Origin: Lysobacteraceae bacterium
Lineage (GTDB): Bacteria; Pseudomonadota; Gammaproteobacteria; Nitrococcales; AK92
Direction of reading: 5' to 3'
DNA: 64,000 nt
Assembly (NCBI GenBank): GCA_012523465.1
Contig: JAAYIK010000013.1
Coordinates: 186,001 to 250,000 of the forward strand
Shown piece by piece: positions 19,301 to 22,074 of the stretch (its first letter is position 1; the number at the start of each line of letters is the position of its first letter). Under the pieces are notes generated by a model. It was given only the letters and a program-made list of their open reading frames with translations, ran no database searches and had not been told where the DNA came from. A program made the position numbers and the translations under genes.

Positions 19301-19336
19301 AAGGCCGCAGCCCAAGGGCTGCGGCCTTCTCGTTTC
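19301..19336 (+). terminator. Rho-independent terminator after fabB
   Basis: 12-pair stem AAGGCCGCAGCC (19301-19312) / GGCTGCGGCCTT (19317-19328), loop CAAG, followed by CTCGTTTC. A smaller hairpin CTTGCGG-TCG-CCGCAAG (19281-19297) precedes it. The downstream edge touches the stop codon of the convergent NSS gene, so it may serve both directions. Confidence 0.85.
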
Positions 19337-20708
19337 AGCCCCTCAGCACGCCCACACTATAGAGCAGCACCAAAACGACCAGCACCGGCGAGACAAAGCG
19401 CAGCACGAAGTACCAGAGCCCGAAGTAGCTGCCGAGCCGCACCTCCTCCGCAACCGCGGCCCGCTTCATCCGCCAGCCGACGAACAGCGCCACACCCAGC
19501 CCGCCTAGCGGCAGCATGATGTTGCTGGTCACGCCGTCCAGCAGATCGAAGAAGGTCTTGCCACTCAACGCATCGATGAAGCCAAGCGGGTGGAAACCGC
19601 TCATCAGGTTGAATGACAGCGCACTGAAAATCCCGAGGATCCAGGCGATGACCGCCAGAATTCCGGCCGCCTGCAATCGGCTTAACCCGCGCCGGGCCAT
19701 CAGATAGGCGGTGGCCGGCTCCAGCAGCGAGATCGCCGAGGTCAGCGCGGCGAACACCACCAGTAGGAAGAACAGGAAACCGAAGAAGCTGCCGGCGACC
19801 ATCTGGCCGAAGACATACGGCAGCGTCTGGAACAACAAACCGGGGCCAGCTTGCGGCTCCAGGCCGATGGAGAAGACAATGGGGAAGATCATCAGCCCTG
19901 CCAGCAGAGCGACGATGGTGTCCGTAGTGATGACCACCACCGTGTTGCGACCGATGGACTCTTGGGGAGAGAGATAAGAGCCGTAGGCCATCACTGCTCC
20001 CATCCCCAGGCTAAGACTGAAGAAAGCCTGGCCCAGTGCCATGAGCACCGACTCCGGACCGAGCTGGCTGAAATCCGGCCTAAACAGGAACGTAAAGCCC
20101 TCGGCAAAGGCACCGATCCAGGCGCCGTAGCCGACCAGAACCAGGATCAGCAGGAACAGCAGCGGCATCATCCAGCCCACCGCCCACTCGATGCCGCCGC
20201 GCACGCCGCGGGCGACGATGAGGAAGCAAATCAGCATGAACAGGGTGTGCCAGAAAATCTGCAGCCCCGGGCTGTCCAACAGGCTGCCGAACTGGGCCTG
20301 AGCTTCCTCCGCCCCCAACCCTGAAAGCGCGCCGGTCAGGCCCCTCAGCGTATAGTCCAGTGCCCAGCCGGCGATCACACTGTAGAAGGAAAGGATCAAA
20401 AACCCAGCCAGAACGCCCATGCCGCCGATCAGGCGCCAGACAGGGCTTACACCGCTCTCCTCCGCCGCCGCCCGCATCGCGGCCACCGGATTGCTCTGCC
20501 CGCGGCGTCCGACCAGGATCTCAGCAATCATAATGGGCACGCCGATGGCGAGTATGCAGAGCAGGTAAACCAGAACGAAGGCTCCACCTCCATTAGCCCC
20601 GGCCATGTAGGGAAATTTCCAGATGTTCCCCAGGCCTATGGCGGAGCCGGCCACCGCCAGCACGAAGCCGCGGCTGCCGCTCCACTGCTCTCGGGTCTGT
20701 TGCACCAT
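19335..20708 (-). CDS. Neurotransmitter:sodium symporter (NSS) family transporter
   Basis: 457 residues. The first helix carries the family signature SAIGLGNIWKFPYMAGANGGGAF (sodium and substrate site, residues about 21-43), then FVLVYLLCILAIGVPIMIAEILVGR. About eleven or twelve membrane segments; MAYGSYLSPQESIGRN near 240 is also typical. Bacterial relatives carry amino acids with sodium. The short tail and absence of a large C-terminal domain match MhsT/LeuT-type members. Substrate is not predictable. Convergent with fabB. Confidence 0.92.
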   Translation of the reverse strand: MVQQTREQWSGSRGFVLAVAGSAIGLGNIWKFPYMAGANGGGAFVLVYLLCILAIGVPIMIAEILVGRRGQSNPVAAMRAAAEESGVSPVWRLIGGMGVLAGFLILSFYSVIAGWALDYTLRGLTGALSGLGAEEAQAQFGSLLDSPGLQIFWHTLFMLICFLIVARGVRGGIEWAVGWMMPLLFLLILVLVGYGAWIGAFAEGFTFLFRPDFSQLGPESVLMALGQAFFSLSLGMGAVMAYGSYLSPQESIGRNTVVVITTDTIVALLAGLMIFPIVFSIGLEPQAGPGLLFQTLPYVFGQMVAGSFFGFLFFLLVVFAALTSAISLLEPATAYLMARRGLSRLQAAGILAVIAWILGIFSALSFNLMSGFHPLGFIDALSGKTFFDLLDGVTSNIMLPLGGLGVALFVGWRMKRAAVAEEVRLGSYFGLWYFVLRFVSPVLVVLVLLYSVGVLRG

Positions 20709-20872
20709 TGTTGTTGTTCTCCGCTTGGGGGGTTCCTAGGAGGCACCGGGCAAGACGGCCTGCCGGTGCCGAACAGTGCTGCCTGAATTGTGGCAATCGG
20801 GCCGCACGGCGGCAACTCGCCGCCCGCCCCGAGGTCTGCCCACCGTCGCCCCTGCCCTGTTGGCAGGCCGCA

Positions 20873-21193
20873 GGCGCTGTCGGCTTCAGCGCCAGGGACT
20901 TCGCCAAGCTCCGGTCGGCACCACCTCCACCTGGTGGAGCATGGTCATGCCTTGCTATATGCGCATCGACTACCTGGCCGAGGGAATCGCCCGCGGTGCC
21001 GGCGCCAACGGCGGCAAAACCCGATCTTGAACACCGTCACCATCTCGGACGGCGTCGCCGACGAGCCGGGGACGATGAAATGCTCGCTGGCATCCGGGGG
21101 ATGATCACCGGTTCGGCGGAATCCAGCGCCGGCTGTCAAGGATTCGACGGCCTGCTCGCCATCGGCGCAACGACAGGAACAGGCCCGGCTGCC
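20873..21193 (+). pseudogene. Decayed fragment of dihydroxy-acid dehydratase (ilvD/edd family)
   Basis: Four consecutive blocks match, in order, the N-terminal part of IlvD-type dehydratases but in three reading frames: GAVGFSARDFAKL (20873-20911), VGTTSTWWSMVMPCYMRIDYL continuing to 21018, LNTVTISDGVADEPGTMKCS to 21101, and GMITGSAESSAGCQGFDGLL ending at 21193. Family equivalents are AVGF..DDF.KP, IVG...W...TPCNM....LAE, FNTI.VSDGI...EGMKYSL and REVIADSIE......DGLVAI. Three frameshifts and several lost conserved residues (for example the CDK motif) show it is dead, and the C-terminal four-fifths is missing. The flanking bases 20709-20872 and 21194-21313 hold nothing I recognise. Confidence 0.7.
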
Positions 21194-21313
21194 AGGCAGC
21201 CGCCGCCATGCTATCGATGCGGCGTGCTGGCAAAGTACGCTCGCAGTGTCGGTTCAGCTGCTGAGGGTGCGGTCGCCGACCGCTTCGCCCTCTTGACAGC
21301 GCTAGGTCGCAGA

Positions 21314-21523
21314 TCAGCCTCGCTCCCGCGTGCTGCGGCGGTTCCAGCCGGCGATGGCGTCCTCCCGCTTTTCCTTCTCCGGACCACGGGCCTCGCAGCG
21401 AGTGCAGTACACCACGTAGAAAGGCTCATAGCCGGGCTGGCCGGGGTCGCGATAGATGTCGGCAACGCCGCCGCAGAATGGGCACAAATGCAAATCCCGA
21501 ACCGTGCTTGCTTTGGATGGCAT
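21314..21523 (-). CDS. Lar-like (restriction alleviation family) zinc-ribbon protein
   Basis: 69 residues from ATG 21523. Zinc-ribbon cysteines are C14, C17, C40 and C43 (LHLCPFCGG and VYCTRCEARGP), followed by EDAIAGWNRR, the usual ending of Lar-like proteins. Lar proteins of phages and enterobacteria weaken type I restriction, but chromosomal Lar-like zinc ribbons are often uncharacterised, so the function is open. It ends 7 bases after the Gre-like gene on the same strand begins the unit; the two may be cotranscribed. Confidence 0.7.
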   Translation of the reverse strand: MPSKASTVRDLHLCPFCGGVADIYRDPGQPGYEPFYVVYCTRCEARGPEKEKREDAIAGWNRRSTRERG

Positions 21524-21530
21524 TGAAGGG

Positions 21531-22043
21531 CTATTCCTGTTCGTAATCGATCGCGATGATTTCGAGGACTTCCACGCCATTCGCGGTCTCCAGCCGCACC
21601 TCGTCGTCCAGGCTGCGTCCCAGCAGGGCACGGGCGACAGGCGCCAGGAAGGAGACCCGGCCTTCGGCGGCATTGGCTTCGTCGACGCCGACGATGCGAT
21701 AGCGCCGCTCCTCGCCCGCTTCGGTCGACACCGTGACCGTCGCGCCGAAGCGCACCACCTCGGGATCCTGGCCGGCAGGGTCCACTACTACGGCGCTGGC
21801 CAGCCTGGCGTCCAGCTCGGCGAGCTGCTGGGCCAGAACCGCGTGGCGCCGGCGCCGCTCGCCCTCGTCCGCCAGCTCGTCCAAGGCATCGCGCTGGCGA
21901 GCCAGCCGCTCTCGCTCTTCCTGCAGCAACCGCAAGCCGCGCGGCGTCACGTAATTGGGCGTGCCGGGGGGCAACGGCGGGCGGGCCGGCACCACCAGAG
22001 GCACATCCTGGGCGTCGTCCTCTTTCACGAATGCCTTGCTCAT
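21531..22043 (-). CDS. GreA/GreB-family transcription elongation factor-like protein
   Basis: 170 residues from ATG 22043. An N-terminal coiled coil (about 40-95) starts with PNYVTPRGLRLLQEERERL and a C-terminal FKBP-like domain (about 100-170) holds VRFGATVTVSTEAGEERRYRIVG, SFLAPVARALLGRSLDDEVRLE. The coiled-coil tip reads LADEGERRRRHAVL, without the GDLxENxEY sequence used by GreA/GreB to hold the catalytic magnesium in RNA polymerase, so transcript cleavage activity is doubtful. It may be a competitor-type secondary-channel factor. The 31-base gap to fliR suggests separation from the flagellar cluster only by convention; same strand. Confidence 0.75.
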   Translation of the reverse strand: MSKAFVKEDDAQDVPLVVPARPPLPPGTPNYVTPRGLRLLQEERERLARQRDALDELADEGERRRRHAVLAQQLAELDARLASAVVVDPAGQDPEVVRFGATVTVSTEAGEERRYRIVGVDEANAAEGRVSFLAPVARALLGRSLDDEVRLETANGVEVLEIIAIDYEQE

Positions 22044-22074
22044 GACGCTACTGTAGCGCAAAAGCGCCAGGCAA

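Follow-up and report, generated by a model that had tools for sequence, protein, structure and literature searches.

Ordinary bacterial pseudogenes arise by frameshifts and internal deletion, and the locus described here resembles them in its small deletions, its one large deletion, its relaxed codon positions and the redundant counterpart that was kept, with no notable difference. The gene concerned is ilvD, which encodes dihydroxy-acid dehydratase (DHAD). Two forms of the protein are relevant, namely the short form (NF002068/PRK00911, TIGR00110) and the E. coli type or long form (NF009103/PRK12448), which belongs to the same enzyme family and is predicted to share the reaction. A Cys at alignment position 48 marks predicted [2Fe-2S] DHADs, whereas Gly occupies this position in [4Fe-4S] DHADs such as the E. 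coli type, and oxygen stability is greater for the [2Fe-2S] form (PMC9543379).

We analyzed a window of 64,000 nucleotides from a Lysobacteraceae bacterium (GCA_012523465.1, contig JAAYIK010000013.1, positions 186,001 to 250,000), in which the original prediction had placed an IlvD relic between an NSS transporter gene and a Lar-like gene. Tblastn, 67–72% DNA identity and comparison with shuffled sequences confirmed this relic. Both of its ends align with short-form ilvD; unlike the intact genes, it is frameshifted, has lost a middle part of ~1.18 kb, carries a replaced ligand Cys codon and is non-functional. The E. coli-type protein resident in the same genome is more distant: it is about 40% identical to short-form proteins of subgroup S1 (the label used here for PRK00911-like short-form ilvD), has Gly for Cys at the diagnostic position and does not detect the relic.

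Structure of the relic

The relic lies on the plus strand, in a gap of 600 bases that separates the NSS transporter gene from the Lar-like gene. Its features and neighbours are listed below; nucleotides (nt) of the intact gene refer to the ilvD open frame of the relative G003.

19335..20708, minus strand: sodium:neurotransmitter symporter (NSS) family transporter, PF00209 (neighbour)
20876..21193, plus strand: N-terminal block (N block) of the short-form ilvD relic, aligned with nt 94-412 in G003
About 20912/13, 21020/21, 21094/95 and 21166/67, plus strand: four 1-nt deletions in the N block
20932-20934, plus strand: 3-nt insertion in the N block
20953..20955, plus strand: codon TGC, still readable, aligned with the TPC cysteine of predicted [2Fe-2S] DHADs (sequence, alignment and the signature of PMC9543379)
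21169..21171, plus strand: codon AAC (Asn) in place of the Fe-S-ligand Cys of CDKNMPGC in intact genes (alignment)
21193..21196, plus strand: junction of the large deletion; G003 nt 413-1595 absent, an out-of-frame net loss of 1,181 nt
21196..21285, plus strand: C-terminal block (C block) of this ilvD, ungapped alignment with nt 1596-1685 of 1692 in G003
21314..21523, minus strand: Lar-family restriction alleviation-like small protein, TIGR03655 (neighbour)

As the tblastn query against the window, we used an intact short-form IlvD encoded on a Pseudomonas hygromyciniae plasmid (L002). Three collinear pieces (20812-21018, 21024-21095 and 21095-21166) gave a combined E value of 2.45e-12, and a fourth (21197-21283) matched residues 515-543 of 543 (E = 2.6e-6). 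At the DNA level, positions 20874-21193 were 67–72% identical to intact ilvD genes of relatives in the order; the alignment of the N block with the G003 gene (same family, locus L021) covered 318 bp with 72.4% identity in blastn (74% among the rows of the tree described below). The C block was also recovered when the organism's own genome was searched with the G003 protein (window 21194-21286, 74% over residues 508-538 of 539, E = 7.5e-7), and it matched positions 528-556 of 559 of the NF002068 profile (E = 0.0088). The alignment score of the N block against the G003 gene was 270, whereas none of 500 dinucleotide shuffles scored above 51; for the C block, the score was 76 and the 500 shuffles reached at most 34. 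Both ilvD termini are collinear, in the right order and on the same strand. Because both ends were kept, the relic represents one ilvD minus its ~1.18 kb middle, not an N-terminal fragment. The range originally predicted, 20873-21193, was nearly exact for the N block but missed the C block.

The four single-base deletions spread the N block over three frames, which explains why four IlvD peptides had been noticed in three frames. These N-terminal peptides are real and lie in aligned blocks, but NDRNRPGC and the C-terminal 30 residues had gone unreported. In reading order, the relic peptides are VGFSARDFAKL; PVGTTSTWWSMVMPCYMRIDYLAEGIARGAGANGGK; ILNTVTISDGVADEPGTMKCSLAS; RGMITGSAESSAGCQGFDGLLAIG; NDRNRPGC; and, past the large deletion, ARQPPPCYRCGVLAKYARSVGSAAEGAVADRF. 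The C block comprises the ~30 last codons of ilvD, and the stop codon is gone. The four 1-nt deletions and the out-of-frame loss of a net 1,181 nt leave no open reading frame over the full ilvD length, and the GSCGGM Fe-S-ligand region lies within the deleted middle. Judged from its sequence, the relic makes no working enzyme. Only two of nine intact S1 genes (L021 and L024, by eye) carry GCCTG at each of the two break sites, so that slippage between short repeats as the origin of the ~1.18-kb deletion is a guess.

A 272-codon open frame (20708-21526, plus strand) spans the relic in GC-rich DNA, and an NCBIfam scan matched it to the C-terminal part of IlvD only. Gene callers could report this frame as a hypothetical protein; it is probably not a gene.

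Relationship to other ilvD genes

PF00920 matches were found in 53 of 59 genomes searched, including the organism's own. We classed the ilvD loci by two references and split S1 from S2 by eye (75–77% and 54–60% identity to the plasmid protein, respectively). Long and S1 forms occurred together in five genomes (G003, G004, G005, G025 and G037); thus, the two forms are found side by side in some relatives, and genomes with a single form are common. Three genomes (G013, G031 and G034) had S1 without the long form, and five had the long form without an intact S1 gene (G000, the genome with the relic; G002; G012, with S2; G054; and G056). G001 contained a contig-edge ilvD fragment 95.6% identical to the long form, and S2 was carried by most of the others.

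We constructed a tree from 18 N-block DNA rows, comprising the relic, nine S1 genes and eight chosen S2 genes, with long-form genes left out. The relic and the nine S1 genes grouped apart from the eight S2 rows with support of 100/100. The end branch of the relic (0.42) was the longest in the tree, and the G003 gene was the most identical S1 gene; these 18 rows gave no placement of the relic among S1 members.

In the organism's own genome, the search for an intact ilvD returned one PF00920 match, which was above the cut-off: an E. coli-type gene of the different subfamily at G000:C27 (NF009103, 1202 bits). An intact S1 copy was not found there, either by the PF00920 search or by the search with the G003 protein. 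The original prediction had offered two origins, namely decay of an extra ilvD/edd paralog or a duplicated fragment left by recombination. Because the resident gene is of a different subfamily, the relic falls in the S1 clade with 100/100 support and no intact S1 copy was found in the genome, we consider the relic an extra paralog and not a duplicated piece of the resident gene. Tblastn with the long form over the window gave no significant match at the relic, and the resident ilvD was rejected as its source on this basis as well. The relic is thus of IlvD rather than Edd, and an Edd relic was rejected: the covering open frame matched NF002068 only, via its C-terminal part, and the closest DNA matches were IlvD genes.

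In an alignment of 12 proteins, Gly (VPGH) was present in 5/5 long forms and Cys (TPC) in 7/7 short forms. The TPC Cys precedes the CDK cysteine by 73 alignment columns, which is the spacing of positions 48 and 121 in PMC9543379. The Cys of the short forms, the TGC codon in the relic and the Gly of the long forms together suggest that the lost S1 enzyme was probably an oxygen-stable [2Fe-2S] DHAD and that the kept long form is probably an oxygen-sensitive [4Fe-4S] DHAD.

Decay at codon positions

Mismatches between the N block and the G003 gene numbered 22/106, 26/105 and 34/104 at codon positions 1, 2 and 3, whereas the 36 pairs among nine intact S1 genes showed fractions of 0.02-0.13, 0.01-0.11 and 0.34-0.56, respectively. 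This flattening relative to intact pairs indicates that constraint at positions 1 and 2 of the N block was relaxed. Second-position mismatches of the relic (pooled over nine S1 genes) exceeded those of intact pairs by 0.15 to 0.33 in all six N-block segments. For the 30 codons of the C block, pooled mismatches at positions 1, 2 and 3 were 0.33/0.19/0.58 compared with 0.23/0.21/0.54 in intact pairs, and second-position mismatches against G003 were 2/30, which represents little excess decay. The long decay that had been proposed is therefore borne out by the N-block counts but not by the C block. Given 30 codons, the coding-like C-block pattern may be due to chance, and the difference from the N-block pattern (Fisher P = 0.04), one among several comparisons, was not relied on. 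Retention of the C-terminal remnant, through translation within the 272-codon frame or another local role, appears improbable; if it were retained, the dead gene would have left a small living remnant.

Genomic context

Synteny in relatives had been proposed as a check, and no relative examined had ilvD at this site. Specifically, limited stretches near fabB, the NSS gene or the GreA/GreB-like gene were inspected in seven relatives (fliR loci left out), and none of them contained ilvD. Among the inspected loci, NSS adjoined fabB in G005 only. G001, the only same-genus genome (78% complete), had a different frame there, an ABC-type ATPase as read from its start. Beside seven S1 loci (G004 S1 flanks left out), NSS, fabA, fabB, Lar, GreB and FliR-like genes were not found. 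Neighbour genes of S1 were common to G031 and G013 only, which belong to one genus, and otherwise differed between genera.

Several observations concern the surroundings. A second NSS transporter (G000:C1:76954-78306), on the same contig, shares 44% identity with the NSS transporter beside the relic. The GreA/GreB-like protein at 21531-22061 (minus strand) fell under the cut-offs of all greA/greB models; G034 has one relative at 42%, aligned along most of the protein, the other matches are weaker, and further GreA/GreB-family matches lie at C5, C21 and C12 of its own genome. The intact short-form ilvD of the conjugative Pseudomonas plasmid (L002 3964-5595, NZ_CP070507.1) lies downstream of pyrC, in a stretch for which the PLSDB table lists no gene.

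Origin of the relic

We conclude that the relic is an ordinary pseudogene of a redundant ilvD paralog, a reading that is well supported. The homology, both gene ends, the lesions and the second, intact ilvD are direct observations. More specifically, we assign a probability of about 0.94 to the inactivation and decay of a redundant short-form (S1) paralog between the NSS and Lar-like genes. A second, PRK00911-like DHAD gene would formerly have been intact at this site, on the plus strand. It would have become dispensable, since the E. coli-type gene at G000:C27 can probably provide the same valine/leucine/isoleucine step, and with redundancy as the presumed cause of its inactivation it would have drifted, acquiring four 1-nt deletions and the ~1.18-kb internal deletion and losing its ligand Cys codon and stop codon. 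We infer both the order of these lesions and the decay in place.

Decay in place gains no support from synteny, because an intact S1 gene was not found at the relic site in any relative examined. This would also suit an ilvD fragment that was imported or duplicated by recombination and never worked here, as would the S1 surroundings that vary between genera and the copy on a conjugative Pseudomonas plasmid, which together suggest that the S1 gene may move. We nevertheless consider such a fragment unlikely: the two termini are arranged and oriented just as they would be in a complete gene that had lost its interior, and an intact S1 donor was not found in the organism's own genome. Single-base deletions are a common error type, and four of the lesions are of this kind; however, a working ilvD broken by assembly or sequencing errors would leave the absent ~1.18 kb, the flattened N-block codon positions, the replaced Fe-S-ligand Cys codon and a branch by far the longest in the tree unaccounted for, and is very improbable. 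The chance that the similarity is accidental, in GC-rich DNA, is negligible, with each block far above 500/500 shuffles and both ends matched significantly and independently.

The relic records the disappearance of one member of a pair of parallel dihydroxy-acid dehydratases from a lineage with some relatives that retain the pair. If cluster type can be predicted from the Cys/Gly signature, the enzyme given up here was the oxygen-stable one, and the lineage relies on the oxygen-sensitive one. Among the literature matches listed, no title concerned such an ilvD relic. In G002, an IlvD/Edd-family gene (G002:C24:23318-24258, L232) appears to be divided between two frames that overlap (PF00920 pieces 2-201 and 197-314) and is possibly another frameshifted paralog.
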